DNA of 37,465 bases from Candidatus Desulfofervidaceae bacterium (lineage in GTDB: Bacteria > Desulfobacterota > Desulfofervidia > Desulfofervidales > Desulfofervidaceae), in contig JAMOPI010000021.1 of assembly GCA_027064585.1 (NCBI GenBank), positions 1 to 37,465 of the forward strand, in the 5' to 3' direction. This document shows, one piece after another, positions 17,390-31,542 of this stretch; positions within the stretch are counted from its first letter, which is position 1, and every line of letters starts with the position of its first letter. Position numbers and translations under genes: made by a program. The notes below the pieces were generated by a model. That model made no database searches and was not told the DNA's origin. It saw only the letters and a program-made list of their open reading frames with translations.

Positions 17390-17893
17390 ATGTTAGAAGA
17401 AAAAGATATTTATTTCATGCGGTTAGCCCTGGAGGAAGCCATCAGGGCTGAAGAAGAGGATGAGGTGCCGGTAGGTGCCGTCTTGGTAAAGGACGGCCAA
17501 GTTATCGCCCGTGCCCATAATGAAGTAATTAAACAAAATGACCCTACCGCCCACGCCGAAATATTGGCCATTAGAAGGGCAGCTAAAATAATTGGTAATT
17601 ACCGCTTGCTTGATAGCGAACTTTATGTTACTATTGAACCATGCTTTATGTGTGCCGGGGCCATTTTACATGCCCGGCTAAAGAGGGTTGTTTTTGGAAC
17701 TTTTGAGCCCAAGATGGGGGCCTTTGGCTCTTTATATAATTTGAGTAGAGACAAAAGGCTTAACCACCACCTAGAGGTTAAAGGTGGTGTGTTGGCAGAA
17801 GAAGCACAAAGGCTTATCCAGGCATTTTTTAGACGGCGGAGAGGTACCGAAGTGGCCGTAACGGGGGCGACTCGAAATCGCCTTGTCCCGTGA
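17390..17893 (+). CDS. tadA: tRNA-specific adenosine deaminase
   Basis: Deaminates adenosine 34 of tRNA-Arg(ACG) to inosine. The zinc and catalytic residues are His55 and Glu57 in TAHAEILA, and Cys85 and Cys88 in EPCFMCAGA. ATG 17390 gives the normal 167-residue length; a TTG at 17354 is the presumed -35 box. The conserved part ends with the usual LIQAFFRRRR. The remaining 18 codons, from residue 150, lie inside the tRNA-Ser gene that starts at 17838, and the stop codon falls within the variable arm of that tRNA. An 8-bp hairpin (17765-17789) inside the coding region is of unknown meaning. Confidence 0.94.
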   Translation: MLEEKDIYFMRLALEEAIRAEEEDEVPVGAVLVKDGQVIARAHNEVIKQNDPTAHAEILAIRRAAKIIGNYRLLDSELYVTIEPCFMCAGAILHARLKRVVFGTFEPKMGAFGSLYNLSRDKRLNHHLEVKGGVLAEEAQRLIQAFFRRRRGTEVAVTGATRNRLVP

Positions 17894-17933
17894 TGAGCGG
17901 GGCACGTGGGTTCGAATCCCACCCTCTCCGCCA
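17838..17933 (+). tRNA. tRNA-Ser (anticodon CGA)
   Basis: Class II tRNA. The acceptor stem GGAGAGG (17838-17844) pairs with CCTCTCC (17923-17929), followed by discriminator G and an encoded CCA. The anticodon stem GGCGA/TCGCC closes a CTCGAAA loop, with anticodon CGA at 17873-17875 reading UCG. The long serine variable arm and the GTGGG-TTCGAAT-CCCAC T-arm are present. Its first 56 bases overlap the end of tadA. Confidence 0.96.
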
Positions 17934-17956
17934 GGAGTTGAGCTTTGGGAGATAAC

Positions 17957-18049
<93 letters not shown>

Positions 18050-18064
18050 TGAAGAATATAAGTT

Positions 18065-18166
18065 GGTAGCTGGGCCCTGTGCAACGGGGGCCTGTGAACC
18101 CCGCCAGGCCCGGAAGGGAGCAACGGTAAACAGGTCCTCCCGTGTGTTGCAGGTAGCCTGGCTGCC
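18065..18166 (+). ncRNA. ffs: Signal recognition particle RNA (4.5S type)
   Basis: Contains the universal SRP domain core CCAGGCCCGGAAGGGAGCA with the GGAA tetraloop and the conserved internal loops. The ends GGTAGCTGGG (18065-18074) and CCTGGCTGCC (18157-18166) pair along their full length, counting G-U pairs, so the molecule is a closed hairpin of about 102 nt without an Alu domain. It lies between the tRNA genes and dnaX, as scr does in Firmicutes. Confidence 0.95.
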
Positions 18167-20212: not shown

Positions 20213-21871
20213 ATGTTTGGATGGGCAGGTAAAATTTTAAGAGTAAACCTTGGTAAGGAAAGGATTTTTGAAGAGGAGTTAAAACCAGAAGCAAATCTGG
20301 ATGTTCTAGGAGGGCGAGGCTTAGCAGTTAAATTGTTCACCACTGAGGTTAAGCCAGAAGTAGATCCTCTCTCATCGGAAAACAAGATTATTCTTATGAC
20401 TGGTCCCTTAACAGGTACCGGAGTTAATAGTGCTTCTCTTTGTGCTATTGTTACTAAATCGGCTTTAACTCAGACGCTTGTGGGTGCAGAGGTAAAGTTG
20501 TATTTTGGAGCTGAGTTAAAGGCAGCTGGTTATGATGGCATAATTATTGAGGGAAAGGCAAAGGAACCTGTCATTTTGGAAATTCAGGATGAAAGGGTAA
20601 ACATCCTTCCGGCTGATTATCTGGTAGGACAGGATACCAAAACTACTATTACCTTATTTAAAAATACCTTTAACGATCCTTGGGTAGCAAGGGAAGTAAG
20701 GGTACTCTGTATAGGTCCGGCTGGAGAGAAGCAACTACCTGTAGCTGCCTTGGTCGCAGATGGGCTTTTGGTCTCAGAAAGTGTGGGAATCGGAGCAGTT
20801 TTTGGCAGTAAAAACCTTAAGGCCATTGCTGTTAGAGGAACAAAGGACGTTTTGGTAAACAATGGGCAAAGGCTCATTGGTGCAATTTCTACAGCGGTTA
20901 AAGAATGCATTAATAACAAAGCACTTAATACCTTTTCTTTGTTTGGCAGTTATCATACCTATGAGGAGTTTCTTAACAAAGGTATTCTACCCTCCTTTTA
21001 TTTCACACGTCCTTATGTGTTAAGTGTACCTTTAAGTCAAATTCAAACTACTTGGAAAAGAAAAAGGGCATGTTTTTCCTGCCCGGTAGCTTGTTTAAAG
21101 GCTGATCAAAATGGAACCTTTTTCCCTGAGCTTGAGGCCTTTATTGCCTTAGGGCCTTTATGTGGAATTGATGAGCTATCCCTTATTTGTAAGGCCTATC
21201 AAGCCTGTCTTAATAATGGACTTGACCCAGTTGAAACAGGAACCTTTATCGCTAGCTTAATGAAGATAAGCGAAAAGAAGCTATTGGAAGAAAAAGAACT
21301 TCCCATTAAGGTCCAATTTGGGGATAAAGAGGCATATAGGAACTTAATTTCCCTTTTAAACCAACCTGAAGGGCTGTTCAGTTTGGCTAAAGATACGGCC
21401 TCTCTTTGGGAAAAAGTGGGAGAGACTGAAGAATTCGTTGGTATTAAAAGAAGAAGTATTTCTTTAGATATTAGCCACTCTTCCTTTTTGGCCCTCTACG
21501 CTGTTACCTCTAACTGGCCTACACTTCATCCTCATGTTTATGGCTTTATCAATATACATAAAGAGGATATTCCTAAGAAGGTAAAAACTGTTCAGGATAT
21601 AAGTGCTGTGTTAGAGTGTTTGGGTGTTTGCCCTTATTTATACATCGGCCTTCCACTCAAGGCATTTTTACCTATGGTTGCGGCTGTAACAGGTTTAGAG
21701 TGGAAGGAAGAAAACCTGTTAAAGGTGGGAAGTCATATTATTAGTTTAGAATATGGATTCAATCAGAAGGCTGGCATAGGACTTGAGGCAAATCGTTTAC
21801 CTAAGAAACACCAAGCAATTGGGTTTGAAAACATGCTAAAGTCATATTACCAATTGAGGGGATGGCAATAA
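20213..21871 (+). CDS. Aldehyde:ferredoxin oxidoreductase family protein (AOR1)
   Basis: Tungsten-bispterin oxidoreductase family (AOR, also the BamB family); interconverts aldehydes or thioesters and acids with low-potential electrons. At 552 residues it is slightly short. Visible are the N-terminal GWAGKILRVNL, the pterin-loop VLGGRGLAVKLF, LMTGPLTGTG and YFGAELKAAGYDGIIIEG. The [4Fe-4S] ligands are Cys287, 290, 294 and Cys473 (ECLGVC). The catalytic glutamate region PELEAF (Glu306/308) is kept, as is a TSN...H motif near 432-441. The usual DPRG loop is changed to LDISHSS, so the substrate may differ from classical AOR. It is the first gene of the operon, 1 bp before its ferredoxin partner. 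The substrate is unknown. Confidence 0.88.
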   Translation: MFGWAGKILRVNLGKERIFEEELKPEANLDVLGGRGLAVKLFTTEVKPEVDPLSSENKIILMTGPLTGTGVNSASLCAIVTKSALTQTLVGAEVKLYFGAELKAAGYDGIIIEGKAKEPVILEIQDERVNILPADYLVGQDTKTTITLFKNTFNDPWVAREVRVLCIGPAGEKQLPVAALVADGLLVSESVGIGAVFGSKNLKAIAVRGTKDVLVNNGQRLIGAISTAVKECINNKALNTFSLFGSYHTYEEFLNKGILPSFYFTRPYVLSVPLSQIQTTWKRKRACFSCPVACLKADQNGTFFPELEAFIALGPLCGIDELSLICKAYQACLNNGLDPVETGTFIASLMKISEKKLLEEKELPIKVQFGDKEAYRNLISLLNQPEGLFSLAKDTASLWEKVGETEEFVGIKRRSISLDISHSSFLALYAVTSNWPTLHPHVYGFINIHKEDIPKKVKTVQDISAVLECLGVCPYLYIGLPLKAFLPMVAAVTGLEWKEENLLKVGSHIISLEYGFNQKAGIGLEANRLPKKHQAIGFENMLKSYYQLRGWQ

Positions 21872-21872
21872 A

Positions 21873-22262
21873 ATGTATAGAATTAAGGTTGACCATAATA
21901 AATGTACAGGTTGTCGGTATTGTGAATTGGCTTGTTCTTTAAATCACCTTACGACTGCCTTCAATCCCAAAAAGGCACGCATACGTGTAATGAAAAAGAA
22001 TGGCGGTTTCTTTCCCGTTATTTCTGGACCTTGCACTCAAGCCGCTTGTAATGTCAAAATAGATATTGTTATTGGTGAGAATGTATATGATTTTTGTGAT
22101 TTATGTCGGGCAGCTTGTCCGTATAAAGAGGTGTTTAAAGATCCAAATACAGGTGTAGCCTTACAATGTGACTTTTGTGGTATAGATGCTCCCGGCCCGG
22201 CCTGTGTAAGGTGGTGTCCGAGCGGGGCCTTGAGCTTAGTAGAAGTGTCATCTTATATCTAA
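21873..22262 (+). CDS. HycB/BamC-type polyferredoxin (ferredoxin 1)
   Basis: A 129-residue electron-transfer subunit with 13 cysteines: Cys11, 14, 17, 21; Cys54 and 59; Cys75, 78, 82; and Cys99, 102, 111, 115. The spacing suits about three [4Fe-4S] clusters of the HycB/DmsB type. It sits directly after AOR1 and is its likely electron wire, as BamC is for BamB in the benzoyl-CoA reductase complex. Its C-terminal cluster motif (RWCPSGALSLVE) is typical. A second copy follows AOR2. Confidence 0.88.
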   Translation: MYRIKVDHNKCTGCRYCELACSLNHLTTAFNPKKARIRVMKKNGGFFPVISGPCTQAACNVKIDIVIGENVYDFCDLCRAACPYKEVFKDPNTGVALQCDFCGIDAPGPACVRWCPSGALSLVEVSSYI

Positions 22263-22279: not shown

Positions 22280-25200
22280 ATGAACAGAATTGGTACACAT
22301 GTATCTCCTGTAGGTGCGGTCATGGTGGTAGGGGGAGGTATTGCAGGCATTCAAGCCTCCCTTGATTTGGCAGAAGCTGGTTTTAGAGTCTATCTGGTGG
22401 AAAAAGGACCTTCTATCGGTGGGAAAATGGCCCAGTTGGATAAGACTTTCCCCACGAATGACTGTTCTATGTGTATTCTTTCTCCTAAGCTTTCTGAATG
22501 TGGCCGTAATGTCAATATTGATATCATCACTCTGGCCACGGTAAAATCTATTGCTGGCGAACCAGGCCGCTTTAAAGTCGTTTTACATAAAGAGCCTCGG
22601 TATGTAGATGAAACTAAGTGTACCAACTGTGGTCTTTGTGCTCAGTATTGTCCTACCTTAATACCAGACAAATATAATGAAGGGCTATCCTATACTAAAT
22701 GTATCCATTTGCCCTTCACCCAGGCCATTCCGGCTGTGCCATATGTAGAGGCTGATGCTTGCCTTTATCTTCAAGACAAGATGTGCCAGATTTGTACTCT
22801 GGCCTGTAATTACGGGGCGATTGACTTTACTCAAAAACCTCAAGACATAGAACTGGAAGTCGGGGCGGTTATTCTCGCCCCTGGTTATGAAATATTTGAT
22901 CCTCATCTGCGCGCTGAGTTTGGCTATGGTCGTTATGAGAATGTGGTTACTTCTCTTGAATTTGAACGTCTTATCTCAGCTAGTGGTCCTTATATGGGAC
23001 ATATCAAACGCCCCTCAGATAAAAAAGAGCCTAAACGCATTGCCTGGATTCAGTGTGTCGGTTCAAGAGACAGAAAACTAGGCCGGGGCTATTGTTCTTC
23101 GGTTTGTTGTATGTATGCCACCAAGGAAGCCATTTTGGCCAAAGAACATATTTCTGATCTTGAGGCAACTATCTTTTATATAGATATCCGTGCTTTTGGT
23201 AAGGGATATGAAGCCTATTATGAACGGGCTAAACGCCAATATGGTATAAGGTATATCAAAAGCCATATTTCTACGGTTAAAGAGGATCCAAAAACTAAAA
23301 ACCTTATCATTACCTATCTGGACGAAACAGGGCAAAGACAAGAGGCAGAGTTTGACCTAGTTGTGCTGTCTGTCGGAGTAAGTCCAGCCCCAGAAATAGA
23401 AAATCTGGCTAAAACCTTAGGTATTAAGCTTAATCACTACCGTTTCTGTCAGACAACTCCTTTTACGCCAGTAGAAACCAACAGACCGGGCATCTATGTG
23501 TGCGGAGCTGCCAGCGCCCCTAAGGATATTCCTGATGCCGTTATGGAGGCAAGTGGGGCAGCAGCAGGGGCAGCGTCTCTTCTGGCTCAGGCCCGGTTTA
23601 GCCTCAGCCGAACCAAGGAAATACCACCAGAACGAGATATTTCCCAGGAAGAACCACGGATTGGCGTGTTTATCTGTCATTGCGGTACCAACATTGGCGG
23701 TGTATTGAACGTGCCAAGACTAGCAGCGTATGCCAGGACATTACCCCATGTTGTCTTTGCCACCAATGTGCTCTATGCCTGTTCAACCGACACCCAAGAG
23801 GTAATTAAAAAGGCCATCCAAGAGCACAGGCTTAATCGTTTAGTTGTGTGTGCTTGCACGCCTCGTTCTCATTTACCCCTCTTTCAAGAGGTAGCCCAAG
23901 AGGCTGGCCTCAATCCTTATTTGGTGGAAATGGCCAATATACGTGAGCACGATGCCTGGGTACATGCCCGTGCCGGTGAAATGGCCATGGAAAAGGCCAA
24001 GGATACCATCCGCATGGCCGTAGCCAAGGCGGCTCTGCTTAAGCCTCTTTATAGATCTGAATATCCCGTTGAGCATACGGCCCTTGTCGTCGGAGGCGGC
24101 ATTGCAGGTATGATTGCGGCCTTAGAACTAGCAGAACAGGGGTTTAAGGTTCACTTAGTAGAAAAAACAGACAGGCTGGGGGGGAACGCTAACCGTATTT
24201 TTTACACGGTTGAAGGGCTAGATGTGAAGAAATTTTTAAAGAGTTTGGTAGAAAGAGTAACTAAACACGAAAGGATCAACGTTCATACCCTGACAGAAGT
24301 GGAAGGCACAGAAGGGTTTGTGGGAAACTTTATTACCCGGATTAAAAACCAAACCAGTGGTAAGGTGAAGGAAATAAAACATGGTATAACCATCATTGCC
24401 ACAGGTGCCCAAGAGTTTAAACCACATGGTCTTTATAAATATGGAAAACATCCTTGTATCTTGACTTCTCTGGAACTTTCAGAGGCCATTGCCCAAAGCA
24501 AAGAGCAGTTTCGGAACATAAATTGTGTCGTTATAATCCAGTGTGTTGGCTCAAGGGACGAGGAGCGTCCCTATTGTAGTCGCACCTGTTGTACCCTAGC
24601 TATTAAGAATGCTCTAGCTTTGAAGAAGATAAATCCCGGTATGGATATCTATATCCTCTACCGTGATATTCGCACCTATGGTTTTAGAGAAGATTATTAT
24701 ACCAAGGCTAGAGAGGCAAATATCAAGTTCATCCGTTTTGAAAAGGAAAATCCTCCCCAAGTTTCTGTTAAAGGCGATAAAATAGAAGTTACAGTCTATG
24801 AGCCGGCGCTTAAGGAAAACATTACCTTAATACCTGATTTTTTAGCCCTGAGTGCAGCCATTGTAGCTAATCCAGATAATGAAAGGCTTTCTCAATTATT
24901 TAAAGTTTCTTTAACCCAAGATAAGTTCTTTTTAGAGGCCCACATGAAATTGCGGCCTGTAGATTTTGCTTCCGATGGTTTCTTTATGTGTGGATTGGCA
25001 CATGGGCCTAAGTTTATCAGTGAAAGTATCACTCAGGCCAAGGCGGCTGCTAGTCGGGCAGCCACGATATTGGCTAAAGAAAAGCTAAAAGGCGAAGCTA
25101 TTGTCGCTGAAGTAAATGAAGCAAACTGCGATGGCTGCGCTTATTGCGTAGGTGTCTGTCCTTATAAGGCAATTAAACTTATAGAATACATGCATAAGGG

Positions 25201-25366
25201 AAGAGTAAGAAAGGTTGTTGAAGTAAATACCTCACTTTGCAAAGGTTGTGGTGTATGTATGGCAACTTGTCCTAAATGTGGTATTATGGTGAAAAACTTC
25301 ACTTTGGATATATTATCTGCGATGATAGATGCTGCTTTAACCCCGCAGGAGGTAGAAGCCTTGTAG
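22280..25366 (+). CDS. hdrA: Tandem HdrA-HdrA fusion, FAD- and iron-sulfur-containing
   Basis: A 1028-residue fusion of two HdrA-like units. Unit 1 has an FAD site GGGIAG at 18-23, the HdrA motif FPTNDCSMCILSPK, a ferredoxin motif at Cys114-124, and IQCVGSRD (Cys259) with YCSSVCCMYATKEA. Unit 2 has the HdrA N-terminal module (FICHCGTNIGGV, Cys466/468, and VVCACTPRSHLPLF), a second FAD site at 605-610, a second IQCVGSRD...YCSRTCC, and two C-terminal [4Fe-4S] motifs (Cys950-960 and Cys987-997). In methanogens HdrA's FAD bifurcates electrons; two FADs in one chain would allow a bifurcating and a relay site. ATG 22280 is chosen for the standard entry into the first Rossmann motif. It lies 17 bp after ferredoxin 1 and 46 bp before porA. 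Confidence 0.92.
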   Translation: MNRIGTHVSPVGAVMVVGGGIAGIQASLDLAEAGFRVYLVEKGPSIGGKMAQLDKTFPTNDCSMCILSPKLSECGRNVNIDIITLATVKSIAGEPGRFKVVLHKEPRYVDETKCTNCGLCAQYCPTLIPDKYNEGLSYTKCIHLPFTQAIPAVPYVEADACLYLQDKMCQICTLACNYGAIDFTQKPQDIELEVGAVILAPGYEIFDPHLRAEFGYGRYENVVTSLEFERLISASGPYMGHIKRPSDKKEPKRIAWIQCVGSRDRKLGRGYCSSVCCMYATKEAILAKEHISDLEATIFYIDIRAFGKGYEAYYERAKRQYGIRYIKSHISTVKEDPKTKNLIITYLDETGQRQEAEFDLVVLSVGVSPAPEIENLAKTLGIKLNHYRFCQTTPFTPVETNRPGIYVCGAASAPKDIPDAVMEASGAAAGAASLLAQARFSLSRTKEIPPERDISQEEPRIGVFICHCGTNIGGVLNVPRLAAYARTLPHVVFATNVLYACSTDTQEVIKKAIQEHRLNRLVVCACTPRSHLPLFQEVAQEAGLNPYLVEMANIREHDAWVHARAGEMAMEKAKDTIRMAVAKAALLKPLYRSEYPVEHTALVVGGGIAGMIAALELAEQGFKVHLVEKTDRLGGNANRIFYTVEGLDVKKFLKSLVERVTKHERINVHTLTEVEGTEGFVGNFITRIKNQTSGKVKEIKHGITIIATGAQEFKPHGLYKYGKHPCILTSLELSEAIAQSKEQFRNINCVVIIQCVGSRDEERPYCSRTCCTLAIKNALALKKINPGMDIYILYRDIRTYGFREDYYTKAREANIKFIRFEKENPPQVSVKGDKIEVTVYEPALKENITLIPDFLALSAAIVANPDNERLSQLFKVSLTQDKFFLEAHMKLRPVDFASDGFFMCGLAHGPKFISESITQAKAAASRAATILAKEKLKGEAIVAEVNEANCDGCAYCVGVCPYKAIKLIEYMHKGRVRKVVEVNTSLCKGCGVCMATCPKCGIMVKNFTLDILSAMIDAALTPQEVEAL

Positions 25367-25412: not shown

Positions 25413-26603
25413 ATGCCTTCTAAAAATGTAGCGAATAAACGCGTTGGCATGGAGGTTTCTATTGCCATCGCCGAGGCGGTGAAGTTGTGCGATGTAGACG
25501 TGATTTCGGCCTATCCTATTACTCCCCAAACTCATATTGTAGAGCATCTTTCTGAACTGGTGGCTAATGGTGAGCTGGACGCAGAGTTTATCCCTGTAGA
25601 ATCTGAACATACGGCCATGAGTGTGGCAGTAGGGGCATCGGCCACAGGGGCAAGGGTATATACAGCAACCAGTTCTCAAGGATTGGCCCTTATGCATGAA
25701 ATTCTTTTTATTGCTTCTTCTATGCGTTTACCGATAGTTATGACCGTAGCCAACCGGGCCTTATCTGCTCCCATCAGTATCTGGAACGACCACAGCGACA
25801 TTATGGCCGAACGTGATATTGCCTGGATTCAAACCTTTGCCATCAATGGACAAGAGGCCTATGACCTTACCTTCCATGCCTTTAGGGTCTCTGAAGATGA
25901 GAGAGTGCAGTTACCAGTAGTGGTTAATATTGATGGTTTCACCCTTAGCCATGTAATTGAACCTATTGAAATAACGGAAAAAGGAATTGTAGATCAATAT
26001 TTACCTCCCCGCAAACCTATATTCACCCTCCATCCTGACCATCCAGTAACAATGGGACCGGTAGGTATTCCAGAGGTATATACTGAGGCCAGACGGCAGT
26101 TGGAAATGGCAGTAATCAATTCTAAAAAAATTGTTATTGAAGCATGGAAGGAGTTTGCCAAGATATTTGGACGGAAATATCACCCGATAGAGACTTATAA
26201 AACTGAGGATGCAGAGATAATCTTTGTTACTATGGGCTCAGTAACCGAAACGGCTATGTTAGCAGTAGATCTATTGCGGGAAAAGGGTGAAAAGGTAGGC
26301 CTTGTTTATATTCGTCTGTGGCGGCCATTTCCGCATGAAGAGCTCTATAAGGCCATCAAACAGGCAAAGGCCCTGGCGGTGTTGGATCGGGCCATTTCTT
26401 ACGGCGCGAGTGCTGGTCCTGTATATACGGAAATAAGATCCTCTCTTTTTGACAAGCGTAAACGGCCTGCTGTTTATGGCTTTGTTGCTGGATTAGGTGG
26501 AAGAGACATTCCGGCCGAGAGGTTTTTTGAAATGTTAGATGTTGTTAAGTCTGAAAAGGCAGAAGGGCCACAATACTTACATCTTGATGTAAAGGAAGAT
26601 TAA
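25413..26603 (+). CDS. porA: 2-oxoacid (pyruvate):ferredoxin oxidoreductase, alpha subunit
   Basis: Alpha subunit of the four-subunit, CoA-dependent, reversible enzyme that makes acetyl-CoA, CO2 and reduced ferredoxin from pyruvate. Motifs are SAYPITPQTHIVEHLSEL, PVESEHTAMSVAVGASATGA, TATSSQGLALMHEIL and WNDHSDIM. At 396 residues it is full length. AAAAGGAGGG precedes the ATG. It is separated from its partner genes porG, porD and porB by aor2, ferredoxin 2 and hdrCB, unlike usual porGDAB operons. Its stop is followed immediately by the AOR2 start codon. Confidence 0.94.
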   Translation: MPSKNVANKRVGMEVSIAIAEAVKLCDVDVISAYPITPQTHIVEHLSELVANGELDAEFIPVESEHTAMSVAVGASATGARVYTATSSQGLALMHEILFIASSMRLPIVMTVANRALSAPISIWNDHSDIMAERDIAWIQTFAINGQEAYDLTFHAFRVSEDERVQLPVVVNIDGFTLSHVIEPIEITEKGIVDQYLPPRKPIFTLHPDHPVTMGPVGIPEVYTEARRQLEMAVINSKKIVIEAWKEFAKIFGRKYHPIETYKTEDAEIIFVTMGSVTETAMLAVDLLREKGEKVGLVYIRLWRPFPHEELYKAIKQAKALAVLDRAISYGASAGPVYTEIRSSLFDKRKRPAVYGFVAGLGGRDIPAERFFEMLDVVKSEKAEGPQYLHLDVKED

Positions 26604-27926
26604 ATGTTTGGGTGGCAAGGAAAGGCGTTAAGGATCAATTTAAGCAACGGTTTGGTCAGGACAGAAGTTATAGACGAGGCCCTGTTGGCAGATTATGTAG
26701 GTGGTTGTGCTTTAGCCAAACAGATTGCCCGCTTAGAAGATATTTCGGCCCAAAACAACAAGTTGATTTTGGCTAGCGGTGCCCTTACCGGCACGGCCGT
26801 GCCAACGGCGGCCTTTTGTGGGTTAGCAAGTTATGACCAGATAAGAGAAGACGTTACTTGTTGTTCTCTTCTGTACCACTTTGGGCCGGAGTTAAAGGCA
26901 TGTGGTTATGATGTACTCATCATAGAAGGAAAGGCCTCTAAGTGGAGTTATCTGTTCATTACTGAAGATAAGGTAGAAATCGTACCGATAGAACCTGAGC
27001 TGTCTCCATTAGAAACAGAAAGGGTTATCAGAGGAAAGTTTAAAAAGTGGTATAGTAACGATATCCGAACTCTCTGTATTGGAAAGGCTGCCCTTATGCG
27101 GTCGGCCTTAACGGGACTGGTTACGGATGGTCTTTTGGTTAACCGCTCTGGCAGGTTTGGGCAAATTTTTGCCGAAAAGAGGCTAAAGGCCATCGCTTTA
27201 AGGGGCACAGAAGAGATTAAACTTGCCAAACCAAGCCAGTTGCAGCAGCTTGTTACGGACATGCTTGACTCTTTTAGAGAAAAGAAACAGACATTCTTTG
27301 AGGCCATTCACGCCAAGTTTGTCAAGATTGATTTGCCCCTTCTGTGGGAAATCCATCACCATGGCATAGAAAAACGCGCTTGTTTTGCCTGTCCTATAGC
27401 TTGTTTACATACGCGGAAAAACAAATTTCTTCCTAACTTTACAGTTATATTTTGTTTTGCCCGGTTACTTGGCATTGACAGGCAAGAAGATGCCGAAAGG
27501 CTTTATAATCTATGTATAGATCTAGGCATTGATCCTGTCGGCCTCTCGCTGGCAGCGAGGTGTCTTCTTGAGCTAGAAGCAGCTGGGAAAATTGCCAAAT
27601 CCCATTTTAGGCTTGGTAATACGGCAGGGCTTATGCAGCTTTTAAAAGATAAAAAGGCCATTATTCATAAGGGTAACGTTGGACTGGCCAAGGAGTATGG
27701 ATTAGAGGCAGAGTGTGAAAATCTGTTAAACATCATTAACAAACAGTGGGAGCAAATCTTTAGTAATATTGAAAATTTCAGTGAAAAAAGGCAGGTGTTA
27801 AATGCCCTTGGCCTATGTGATTATGCCCTTTTAATTTTCCCTTATGCGGATTTAATAAAGGCCTTTTCCTTTGTGACAGGAAAGGAGTTAGATAAAACAT
27901 TTCTTTTAGCAGGGAATAGAGCATGA
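26604..27926 (+). CDS. Degenerate aldehyde:ferredoxin oxidoreductase paralogue (AOR2)
   Basis: A 440-residue AOR-family protein, more than 100 residues shorter than AOR1. The fold is recognisable: MFGWQGKALRINL, SGALTGTAVPTAA, HFGPELKACGYDVLIIEG. The [4Fe-4S] ligands Cys260, 263, 267 and Cys405 (ALGLC) are kept. Active-site features are lost: the pterin loop GGRGL is GGCAL; the catalytic-glutamate segment PELEAF of AOR1 is PNFTVI; and the region holding TSN...H is deleted, with Cys267-Cys405 spanning 138 residues against 179 in AOR1. I infer a non-catalytic scaffold or electron-relay subunit, perhaps partnering AOR1. The reading frame is intact and the ATGA overlap with ferredoxin 2 is precise, so it is not a decaying gene. 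Confidence 0.85.
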   Translation: MFGWQGKALRINLSNGLVRTEVIDEALLADYVGGCALAKQIARLEDISAQNNKLILASGALTGTAVPTAAFCGLASYDQIREDVTCCSLLYHFGPELKACGYDVLIIEGKASKWSYLFITEDKVEIVPIEPELSPLETERVIRGKFKKWYSNDIRTLCIGKAALMRSALTGLVTDGLLVNRSGRFGQIFAEKRLKAIALRGTEEIKLAKPSQLQQLVTDMLDSFREKKQTFFEAIHAKFVKIDLPLLWEIHHHGIEKRACFACPIACLHTRKNKFLPNFTVIFCFARLLGIDRQEDAERLYNLCIDLGIDPVGLSLAARCLLELEAAGKIAKSHFRLGNTAGLMQLLKDKKAIIHKGNVGLAKEYGLEAECENLLNIINKQWEQIFSNIENFSEKRQVLNALGLCDYALLIFPYADLIKAFSFVTGKELDKTFLLAGNRA

Positions 27927-28342
27927 TAGATCCAAGGCATTACCGCATGCGGGTAGATACCAACAAGTGTACTGGGTGCAGACATTGCGAAATGGCCTGT
28001 TCTATGGTACACAATCAAGACAAAGTCAATTACCACCGGGCGCGAATACGGGTTATTGCTCTAGAAGACAGGTTTTTACCCCTTATCGCTGGACCTTATG
28101 TGTCTGAAACAGAAGAATGTGCTTCTAAAAAGTTGGTGCAAATTGGGGATAAAGTCTACGATCAGTGCATTCTTTGTCGGGCCTCTTGTCCAAATAAGTC
28201 TATTTTTAAGGAACCTGATAGTGGCATTCCTCTCAAATGTGATTTTTGTGCCTTTAGGGAGGAAGGCCCAGCTTGTGTGCAGGTATGTACTAGCGGGGCC
28301 TTAGAAATAATCAAAATTGAGGAAGAAGTGGAAGAGATATGA
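27923..28342 (+). CDS. HycB/BamC-type polyferredoxin (ferredoxin 2)
   Basis: A 139-residue paralogue of ferredoxin 1. Cluster cysteines are Cys16, 19, 22, 26; Cys82, 85, 89; and Cys106, 109, 118, 122, with Cys66 in the middle insert. It overlaps AOR2 and hdrC by ATGA at both ends, so all three are translationally coupled. It probably carries electrons between AOR2 and the Hdr core. Compared with ferredoxin 1, the Cys54/Cys59 pair is reduced to one cysteine, so the middle cluster may be bound differently. Confidence 0.88.
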   Translation: MIDPRHYRMRVDTNKCTGCRHCEMACSMVHNQDKVNYHRARIRVIALEDRFLPLIAGPYVSETEECASKKLVQIGDKVYDQCILCRASCPNKSIFKEPDSGIPLKCDFCAFREEGPACVQVCTSGALEIIKIEEEVEEI

Positions 28343-28863
28343 GCTTTTTACAAGAGGTGAATCGGCGCAGTGGAGAACAGGTGCAGCTCTGCTTTCAATG
28401 TTTCAAATGTAGTCTTGGCTGCCCTGTAGCCTTTGCTATGGATTATCTACCGCATCAGTTGATGCGCTTGATCCAACTAGAGAAAAGAGAAGAAGTATTA
28501 AATAGCCATACTATCTGGCTTTGTGCGGCCTGTGAAACCTGCACCACCCGTTGTCCTAATGGGATAGACATTGCTAAAGTTATTGATACCTTACGCCAGA
28601 TGGCAATGGAAGAAAACAAGGGGACCGAAAAAGAAATTGTTGCCTTTCACAAATCCTTTTTGGACACCGTATACCATCTGGGACGGGCCCATGAGGTAGG
28701 TCTGATGGCCCTGTATAAACTACGGACAAAAAGGTTTCTTGATGATCTTTGGCTGGTGCCAGAATTAGTTAAGCGGCAAAAGCTTTCTTTCAGACTAAGT
28801 AAGGTAGAAAATTTAGGGGAAGTAAAAAAAATCTTTAAGAAGGCGGCTTTATGGCAGAAATAG
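28339..28863 (+). CDS. hdrC: Heterodisulfide reductase subunit C-like protein
   Basis: Iron-sulfur relay between HdrA and HdrB. It has two [4Fe-4S] motifs: Cys18, 21, 24, 28 (LCFQCFKCSLGCP) and Cys62, 65, 68, 72 (LCAACETCTTRCP). The 174-residue length is normal for HdrC. It starts within the last codons of ferredoxin 2 and overlaps hdrB by 13 bases. Order hdrC-hdrB is the usual one. Confidence 0.93.
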   Translation: MSFLQEVNRRSGEQVQLCFQCFKCSLGCPVAFAMDYLPHQLMRLIQLEKREEVLNSHTIWLCAACETCTTRCPNGIDIAKVIDTLRQMAMEENKGTEKEIVAFHKSFLDTVYHLGRAHEVGLMALYKLRTKRFLDDLWLVPELVKRQKLSFRLSKVENLGEVKKIFKKAALWQK

Positions 28864-29708
28864 AGTTAGCTTATTATCCAGGGTGTACTTTAAAAACAAC
28901 GGCTGAGGAGTTTGACCTAACCAGTCGGCAGGTTTGCCGAGAATTGGGGATAAAGCTTATTGAAATTCCTGACTGGAACTGTTGTGGGGCCAGTTCTGCA
29001 CATGAGATAGATGCCTATCTAGCAGTGGGACTTGGTGCCCTTAATCTCGTAAAGGCAGAAAAGGAGTTAGGGCTTGATATAGTAGTGCCTTGTGCAGCCT
29101 GTTTTCAGCGCCTTAAGGTAGCAGAGAAGGAGTTGCTTAAGGGTAAATATCCAGAGTTTCCCTTTGAGGGCAAGATTAAGGTCTATGATCTGTTACGTTT
29201 TTTGGCCCAACCTGAATATCGCCGTAAGCTTAAACAAAAGGTTAAAAAGCCATTAAGGGGATTACGTGCAGTGGCCTATTATGGTTGCCTCCTTACCCGT
29301 CCCCCAGAAATCACCGACCATCCTCAGCCTGAAAATCCCATGGATATGGACCAAATCTTAAAGACGATTGGGGTTGAATGTTTGCCTTGGTCTTATAAAA
29401 CTGATTGTTGTGGAGCTAGCCTGGTAGTAGGAAGGATAGATATTGTTCACCAGTTAGTGAAAAAGCTTTATGAAAAGGCCCAAGAGGTTGGGGCCGAGTG
29501 TGTTGTCACAGCCTGCCCTCTTTGCCACGCTAATCTGGATTTACGCCAAAGGGAAATAAACACAAAGTTTCATACTAATTACTATTTACCGATCTTTTAC
29601 TTTACCGAATTAATGGCATTGGCCATGGGAATTGGCCAGCCTGAAAAATGGGCTAAGGGACACTTGGTTGATCCTCTGCCTTTACTTAAGGCCAAAAATC
29701 TTTTATAA
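28851..29708 (+). CDS. hdrB: Heterodisulfide reductase subunit B-like protein
   Basis: Catalytic disulfide-reducing subunit family with two CCG domains. All ten cysteines expected for the two noncubane [4Fe-4S] clusters are in place: Cys12, 44, 45, 81, 84 and Cys146, 186, 187, 222, 225. So the site should be functional, although a bacterium without methanogenesis will not use CoM-S-S-CoB. The true acceptor, such as a DsrC-like or other thiol/disulfide partner, is not in this window. At 285 residues it is full length. It is followed 12 bp later by porG, joining the Hdr and POR halves of the operon. Confidence 0.94.
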   Translation: MAEIELAYYPGCTLKTTAEEFDLTSRQVCRELGIKLIEIPDWNCCGASSAHEIDAYLAVGLGALNLVKAEKELGLDIVVPCAACFQRLKVAEKELLKGKYPEFPFEGKIKVYDLLRFLAQPEYRRKLKQKVKKPLRGLRAVAYYGCLLTRPPEITDHPQPENPMDMDQILKTIGVECLPWSYKTDCCGASLVVGRIDIVHQLVKKLYEKAQEVGAECVVTACPLCHANLDLRQREINTKFHTNYYLPIFYFTELMALAMGIGQPEKWAKGHLVDPLPLLKAKNLL

Positions 29709-29720
29709 AGAGGTATTGTT

Positions 29721-30263
29721 ATGTTAGAAGTGAGATTTCATGGACGTGGTGGTCAAGGAGCTGTTACCTGTACGGAGCTAGTAGCCAAGGCAGCCATTGC
29801 TGAAGGAAAATATGCGCAGGCTTTTCCCAGCTTTGGTGCAGAGAGAAGAGGAGCACCCGTAATGGCCTTTTTACGGGTTTCAGATGAGCCCATTCGGATA
29901 CGGCAGAAGATTTATGAACCTGATGTAGTAGTCGTTCTTGACCCTACCCTTTTGGGTTTAGCTAGTGTCGTGGAAGGGCTTAAGGAAAACGGCTTGATTA
30001 TTGCCAATTCCCCTAAAACACCTCAAGAATTACAAAAAGAGTACGGCTTTAAACAAAAGGTAGCCACGGTAGACGCTACCAAGATTGCCTTAGATACCTT
30101 AAGACTACCCATTACCAATACCACCATGTTAGGTGCTCTTGTAAAGGCAACACAAGTTGTAAGTATGGAGGCCTTAATTGAGGCCTTGAAAGAACGATTT
30201 GGACGTTTGGCCGAACGTAATAGGTTGGCTATGGAAAGGGCATTTCAGGAGACAAAAATATAA
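29721..30263 (+). CDS. porG: 2-oxoacid (pyruvate):ferredoxin oxidoreductase, gamma subunit
   Basis: Gamma subunit. The N-terminal VRFHGRGGQGAVTCTELVA and the AFPSFGAERRGAPVMAF stretch are hallmark motifs of the gamma domain, which helps bind CoA. The 180-residue length is normal. It lies 12 bp after hdrB and 17 bp before porD. Confidence 0.95.
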   Translation: MLEVRFHGRGGQGAVTCTELVAKAAIAEGKYAQAFPSFGAERRGAPVMAFLRVSDEPIRIRQKIYEPDVVVVLDPTLLGLASVVEGLKENGLIIANSPKTPQELQKEYGFKQKVATVDATKIALDTLRLPITNTTMLGALVKATQVVSMEALIEALKERFGRLAERNRLAMERAFQETKI

Positions 30264-30280: not shown

Positions 30281-30577
30281 ATGCCCAAAAAGATAGATGC
30301 TATTGTTAGTTGGAAAAAATTAAATTTGGGATGCGTCATTACTGAACCTGGCAATGCAAGAGAGTTTCTCACCGGGGATTGGCGTACGCAGCGTCCAATA
30401 TTAGATAAAGACAAGTGTATTCGGTGTGGGCGGTGTTGGATATATTGCCCAGAGGCAGCATATAAGGAAGATGAGGAAGGATATTATCAATGTGACCTCA
30501 ATTATTGTAAAGGCTGCGGTATCTGCGCCCAAGAGTGCCCGGTAGGGGCCATTACCATGGTTCTAGAAGAAGAATAA
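30281..30577 (+). CDS. porD: 2-oxoacid (pyruvate):ferredoxin oxidoreductase, delta subunit
   Basis: A 98-residue ferredoxin-like delta subunit with two [4Fe-4S] motifs ([17 protein letters not shown] and [17 protein letters not shown]). The N-terminal [16 protein letters not shown] is typical of pyruvate synthase delta chains. It would pass electrons from the TPP site to an external acceptor, or here perhaps to the Hdr core. Confidence 0.95.
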
Positions 30578-30588
30578 AGGGGAAGAAA

Positions 30589-31542
30589 ATGCCATATAAA
30601 GGGAAGAAAGCAAGAGAGCTGCCAAAAGAAGAACTTTTTACTCAAGGCCATCGGGCCTGTCAAGGTTGTGCAGGTGCTTTGGCTCTGCGTTTGATTCTAA
30701 AGGCGGTGGGCGATCGTGTGATTATCGCTGCTGCCACCGGATGTATGGAAATCATTTCTTCACCCTTTCCGCAGACGGCTTGGCGTGTACCTTGGATTCA
30801 TGTTGCGTTTGAAAACGCGGCTGCGGTCGCTTCTGGGATAGAATCGGCTTTAAAGGTATTGATGCGAAAGGGAAAATTGAAAAAGGAAAAAATATATGTC
30901 GTAGCCATTGCTGGTGACGGTGGTACGGCTGACATCGGGCTGCAGTCTCTTTCTGGAGCATTAGAAAGAGGACATGATTTTGTTTATGTCTGTATTGACA
31001 ATGAGGCTTATATGAATACGGGTATCCAGCGGTCTTCCTCTACTCCTTTTGGTGCCAGAACGACTACCTCTCCCGCAGGGAAAAAGAGCATTGGTCAGAT
31101 GACTTGGAAAAAAAATGTGGCTGAAATTGCTGTAGCGCATCGTATCCCCTATGTAGCGACGGTTTGCCCAACTTATTACCAAGATATGATAAATAAATTG
31201 AAGAAGGCAGCCAATACCCCTGGTCCGGCTTATGTTCACTGTCTTGCCGTATGTCCTACGGGCTGGCGTGTAAGTCCTAATTTAACCATTGAAGTAGGAC
31301 GGCTGGCCGTAGAAACAGGGGTGTTTCCCCTTTATGAGGTAATAAATGGCAAATACAAGATCAATTATCCTCATCGTCGTCTAAAACCTGTACAGGAGTA
31401 CTTACAACTCCAAGGAAGGTTTAGACACCTCACCGATGAATATATTGAGATAATTCAAAAACGCGTAACTGAAGAGATGGCTAGGCTGCGAGCTTTAGAG
31501 AAATTTGGTAGCTTTTACAACAACTTCACTGCCCATTCTTAA
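30589..31542 (+). CDS. porB: 2-oxoacid (pyruvate):ferredoxin oxidoreductase, beta subunit
   Basis: TPP-binding subunit. The TPP/Mg motif is [19 protein letters not shown] with the partner [19 protein letters not shown]. Cysteines for the proximal cluster are seen in [23 protein letters not shown] and AVCPTGWR. Resemblance to pyruvate synthase beta chains is strong ([19 protein letters not shown]), so pyruvate is the most likely 2-oxoacid. At 317 residues it is full length. ATG 30589 is chosen because AAAGGGGAAG precedes it. It completes the POR set begun by porA more than 5 kb upstream. Confidence 0.95.

Follow-up and report, generated by a model that had tools for sequence, protein, structure and literature searches.

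A probably tungsten-free protein of the aldehyde oxidoreductase fold in a pyruvate synthase-HdrABC operon of Desulfofervidaceae

The window analyzed in this study is a stretch of 37,465 nucleotides, contig C21 of a Candidatus Desulfofervidaceae genome (G000) of 1.92 Mb in 38 contigs. It carries an operon with the order AOR1, ferredoxin 1, double HdrA, PorA, AOR2, ferredoxin 2, HdrC, HdrB, PorG, PorD and PorB (Table 1). PorA scored just below its own NCBIfam pyruvate cutoff, and two other POR-type alpha subunits are present in the genome. Judged by their sequences, both ferredoxins are of the three-cluster, BamC type. Scans for promoters and terminators gave results no richer than those of shuffled sequences. 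In another genome, G002, which consists of a single contig, the coding sequence of the double HdrA is broken into overlapping frames of 836 and 195 aa (L039:5200-8252). Two serine tRNA genes (CGA and GGA) lie side by side at 17838-18049 of the window, upstream of dnaX, and the minus-strand ORF that runs over them (17623-18123) looks spurious.

Table 1. Genes of the operon and features of AOR2, in window coordinates.
Feature	Position	Strand	Remarks
AOR1, 552 aa from this ATG	20213..21871	+	full-length paralogue, atypical pterin contacts
Ferredoxin 1	21873..22262	+	12 conserved Cys (three clusters, BamC-like)
Double HdrA-type flavoprotein	22280..25366	+	
PorA	25413..26603	+	2-oxoacid (pyruvate-type) oxidoreductase alpha
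AOR2, 440 aa	26604..27926	+	AOR-fold paralogue without second-shell residues; frame, Pfam, residue mapping, AlphaFold2, VIA-align
GGCAL, residues 33-37	26700..26714	+	most AORs have GGRGL; C35 invariant in 5/5 AOR2
CFACPIAC, residues 260-267	27381..27404	+	first three [4Fe-4S] cysteines
PNFTVI, residues 277-282	27432..27449	+	Glu313 replaced by T280
C284	27453..27455	+	invariant in 5/5 AOR2; aligned with P. furiosus Ala317, which is four residues past Glu313
C405	27816..27818	+	fourth cluster cysteine
Ferredoxin 2	27923..28342	+	12 conserved Cys
HdrC-like	28339..28863	+	
HdrB-like (CCG domains)	28851..29708	+	
PorG/PorC gamma	29721..30263	+	above an NCBIfam pyruvate cutoff
PorD	30281..30577	+	
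PorB	30589..31542	+	above NCBIfam pyruvate synthase cutoff

The AOR2 frame is open from an ATG start to a TGA stop. Its start directly abuts the stop of PorA, and its stop overlaps the start of ferredoxin 2 by 4 bases (ATGA, 27923-27926). Both Pfam domains, AFOR_N and AFOR_C, scored above cutoff in AOR2, and the AFOR_C match covered only residues 253-349. The original prediction, which was made from the letters of the window, had described an intact frame, four retained cluster cysteines, a PELEAF segment changed to PNFTVI and a loss of about 40 residues, the TSN...H region among them, between the third and fourth cysteines, and all of these were borne out. The cluster ligands are C260, C263, C267 and C405, which are invariant in the five AOR2 sequences described below, and the spacing between the last two is 137 residues in AOR2 versus 178 in AOR1, which leaves 41 missing. 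In addition, AOR2 lacks approximately 30 residues before the cluster motif, which form a second gap, and its C-terminal end is absent from P. furiosus residue 531 onward. The predicted change of GGRGL to GGCAL was also found; however, it was rejected as a diagnostic of AOR2 because BamB and several full-length AORs likewise lack that arginine. An AlphaFold2 model from the five AOR2 rows alone was poor (pLDDT 59.8), and a model built on a 39-row alignment was used instead (pLDDT 91.7, pTM 0.91). VIA-align superposed this model on P. furiosus AOR (1aor, chain 1-533) with a Z of 34.8 and 2.5 A over 435 residues. As modeled, the fold of AOR2 is the AOR fold, from which the segment of Tyr427 and His448 is absent.

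The residues of the active site were mapped at 21 positions across 44 proteins, with the P. furiosus AOR sequence as the reference. Thr243, Glu313, Tyr427 and His448 constitute the second-shell set of AORs (PMC12096430, PMC13328260), and the same studies stressed that the second-shell and pterin-site residues vary little. In all five AOR2 sequences this second shell is gone: Thr243 is replaced by Leu or Ile, Glu313 is replaced by Thr or Ile, and Tyr427 and His448 are deleted together with the segment around them, approximately 35 residues in all, that would also hold Lys450 and Tyr452. Moreover, Arg76, Asn93, Gly95 and Arg182 are gone in each of the five, and Arg76, Gly95 and Arg182 are the P. 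furiosus counterparts of pterin contacts named for AorB (PMC10413684). Glu311 is also lost throughout (Asp in one sequence), whereas of two further pterin contacts, Asp343 and Asp489, the first is retained and the second is Asn, Glu or Asp. The comparison with P. furiosus AOR, which had been proposed as a check of the Glu313 and His448 equivalents and of the pterin contacts, went in favor of the prediction on these residues. The invariant residues of AOR2 are concentrated near the cluster, with 14 of 29 positions invariant there versus 107 of 440 overall (Fisher p 0.003).

AOR2 was sought in 59 relatives and was found in all four other Desulfofervidaceae genomes examined, so that with the window it is present in 5/5 genomes of the family. 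The other copies are 428-448 aa long and 47-57% identical to that of the window. The five sequences span four genera, have a mutual identity of 43-57% and have all the stripped features in common, which places these features beyond chance or local error. Furthermore, these genomes share a core of eleven operon genes, in which AOR2 always holds the same place. AOR2 is a conserved paralogue. A contig search with the single AOR2 protein matched only the contig of G004. In a profile comparison with 395 genomes drawn evenly from the phylum, the five AOR2 proteins scored 733-776 bits and the next matches were AOR1 proteins at no more than 276 bits; no stripped AOR2 was found outside Desulfofervidaceae among these 395 genomes. 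AOR2 had also been described as tightly coupled to ferredoxin 2. The adjacency of the two genes was confirmed, but the tight coupling was not general, as a gap of 113 bases separates them in G004; in the others they overlap or lie 2-24 bases apart. In the sister family (G005), the order is YbaB, ferredoxin 1, PorA, one full-length AOR, ferredoxin 2 and PorGDB, the AOR2 slot is filled by that full-length AOR, and Hdr genes are absent from the operon contig.

Phylogenetic analysis placed AOR2, AOR1 and the POR-linked AOR of G005 in one clade (100/99), in which AOR2 stands on a long stem of 1.22 changes per column; the grouping of AOR1 with the G005 protein beside this stem was weak (90/63). The two AORs show clearly faster evolution than the remainder of the operon, with a dN of 0.37-0.51 versus 0.07-0.26 for the other operon genes measured. 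Between G000 and G001, dN was 0.504 for AOR2, 0.371 for AOR1 and 0.188 for a canonical AOR elsewhere in the genome. As dS was about 2 or saturated for AOR1 and AOR2, purifying selection acts on both genes, though the constraint is loose.

AOR2 and AOR1 fall in a larger supported group (100/100) together with the AORs of G005, the POR-linked one of G009 and those linked to HdrA in G022, G059, G094, G166 and G369. Arg76, Asn93, Gly95 and Arg182 are gone throughout this group, and their loss was therefore rejected as a feature unique to AOR2. Outside AOR2, the Glu313 position holds Glu, Asp, Leu, Asn or Thr, and His448 is kept except in the AOR1 of G001, where it is Ser. Part of the residue loss of AOR2 thus predates AOR2, since full-length relatives that keep His448 also lack these four residues. 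The same loss of the glutamate in relatives makes it a trend among Hdr- or POR-linked AORs, of which AOR2 is the end point. The original prediction had proposed a catalytic and non-catalytic AOR pair, and this is its weak part. The pterin contacts missing from AOR2 are missing from AOR1 too; Glu313 is Asp in three of the four AOR1 orthologues that are intact, and the G001 copy lacks His448. On its residues, AOR1 is not safe as a catalytic partner. In G004, AOR1 is interrupted by a frameshift or an error of the MAG, with frames of 201 and 399 aa that overlap (L037:11987-13653), and AOR2 is intact there. In G009, which belongs to another family, an AOR with Asn at the Glu313 position belongs to an AOR-ferredoxin-PorGDAB operon (L060:5399-10674). 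At four loci (L059, L061, L064 and L065), full-length AORs with Leu or Thr for Glu313 have a ferredoxin and a double HdrA as neighbors and a conserved protein of approximately 521 aa (CVTCxDGCEGPCEIGRS) upstream, forming an AOR-Hdr system without POR. An HdrA-linked-type AOR on G122:C102 (L076) is split by one in-frame TGA into frames of 390 and 198 aa. The window genome holds a further AOR on another contig (G000:C36; L043:6067-7500), which, unlike AOR2, is a real decaying copy: in-frame stops interrupt it, beginning shortly ahead of the cluster motif.

The loss of the second shell and of most of the named pterin contacts, in a state conserved across the family, makes a conserved pseudoenzyme, as originally proposed, the best reading of AOR2. 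That AOR2 is non-catalytic is well supported, and most likely it binds no tungsten and turns nothing over. We infer not only the absence of tungsten but also a complex, its direction and a relay or scaffold role for AOR2. Our preferred explanation, to which we give a probability of roughly 0.55, is that AOR2 is a tungsten-free adaptor of the AOR fold that holds ferredoxin 2, together with its own cluster, in a pyruvate synthase-HdrABC complex. A POR- or Hdr-linked AOR would have been duplicated to give AOR2, and the tungstopterin site would then have been lost while the fold and the [4Fe-4S] cluster ligands were kept, leaving a partner that carries a cluster and on which ferredoxin 2 docks. 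In the structures of AorAB and BamBC, such ferredoxins are docked on the subunit of the AOR fold, and this docking could be the reason why the fold was kept after its chemistry was lost. On the basis of the conserved operon order, the complex would comprise pyruvate synthase (PorABGD), AOR1 with ferredoxin 1, and HdrABC, in which HdrABC would bifurcate electrons and the two ferredoxins would wire it to POR. POR in the rTCA cycle needs a supply of electrons of very low potential. A plausible role of the complex would be to deliver low-potential electrons from flavin-based bifurcation to reductive pyruvate synthesis, and HotSeep-1 has been predicted to fix carbon via the rTCA cycle (PMC10553843).

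Whether AOR2 itself passes electrons is uncertain. In AorAB, the [4Fe-4S] cluster lies between the tungsten and the ferredoxin (PMC10413684), so that without tungsten the cluster would lead nowhere unless a further centre came within reach. A cluster with no obvious redox partner would suit a purely structural subunit or assembly factor in which the cluster is also structural, as would the fast evolution of AOR2 outside the cluster region and the precedent of StnC, a protein with a catalytically inactive FdhF-like domain whose own contacts mediate tetramer formation: it is those of StnC as a whole (PMC10482914). We consider this rather unlikely, because the four cluster cysteines are invariant and ferredoxin 2 is always the neighbor, which a relay fits as well or better. 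Residue loss alone does not prove inactivity, since BamB, which binds tungsten with a Cys ligand, is catalytic without the usual second-shell residues (PMC12096430). AOR2 might accordingly be a reshaped but active tungsten enzyme with another chemistry, relying on different residues as acid or base or on a cysteine, for example C284, as the ligand; Asp343 and the cluster cysteines are retained, C284 and H355 are invariant in AOR2, and MoeA is encoded in the genome. However, BamB keeps its full length, Arg76 and Gly95, all of which AOR2 has lost along with the Tyr427-His448 segment and the C-terminal end, and an active AOR2 is therefore unlikely.

The invariance of C35, C72, C86, C100 and C284 in all five AOR2 sequences raises two further readings, both of which have a very low probability. 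In one, which is only slightly the better of the two, the tungstopterin pocket would have been rebuilt for a different redox centre (C35, C86 and C284, perhaps with C72 and C100), and AOR2 would serve as an iron-sulfur relay linking pyruvate synthase to HdrABC; in the other, the emptied pocket would simply hold another metal centre bound by these cysteines. Apart from CaAOR, which has a Cys at the 284 position, none of the other tabulated AORs has C35 or C284, but CaAOR is a normal tungsten enzyme, C72 is also present in AOR1, C86 is frequent among AORs, C100 is found in one relative, and the pattern comes from five sequences. It is hardly credible that AOR2 is decaying toward loss, for although its dN is high relative to its neighbors, it has an open frame, invariant motifs and the same slot in five genomes at the identities given above, whereas the truly decaying AOR of the same genome already has in-frame stops.

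The Desulfofervidaceae are heat-loving sulfate-reducing bacteria, and the bacterial partner of archaea that oxidise methane and ethane belongs to this family. If the adaptor reading is correct, it suggests that pyruvate synthesis in the family involves a POR-AOR-HdrABC complex. The gene for a tungsten enzyme would then have been retained long after losing the parts that hold and use tungsten, its product apparently serving a larger complex of carbon metabolism in a structural or electron-passing capacity, and annotation based on domains would label the gene a tungsten aldehyde oxidoreductase. A literature search for a non-catalytic AOR paralogue that keeps the fold and cluster and has shed the tungsten site found no described case.

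Among known systems, P. furiosus AOR shares with AOR2 the fold, the CxxCxxxC...C motif and Asp343, but it possesses the second-shell residues, the pterin contacts and the C-terminal end that AOR2 lacks. The full-length Hdr- and POR-linked AORs of G022, G009 and G005 resemble AOR2 in their genetic linkage, in the loss of the four residues from Arg76 to Arg182 and in the replacement of Glu313 by Leu, Asn or Asp, and differ in their full length and retained His448. The AorAB nanowire of Aromatoleum aromaticum is likewise a pair of an AOR and a polyferredoxin; however, AorB is catalytic, which AOR2 is not expected to be, and ferredoxin 2 would carry three clusters rather than four. In class II benzoyl-CoA reductase, an AOR-fold subunit without the aldehyde second shell (BamB) is partnered by an HdrA-type protein and by BamC, a three-cluster ferredoxin (PMC13328260). 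BamB differs from AOR2 in its full length and in binding tungsten with Cys322. No clear counterpart of this Cys is present in AOR2, whose C284 is placed four residues beyond the Glu313 site; the BamB cysteine lies near Glu311, as counted from the third cluster cysteine across a gapped loop. Moreover, AOR2 sits with POR and not, as BamB does, with BamGHI. NuoG of complex I retains a pterin-enzyme fold without catalysis in an electron-transfer complex, and its fold is the molybdopterin fold and not that of the AOR family. The same is true of the inactive FdhF-like domain of StnC, which is formate dehydrogenase-like (PMC10482914). If our reading is correct, AOR2 parallels these inactive pterin-enzyme folds of StnC and complex I.
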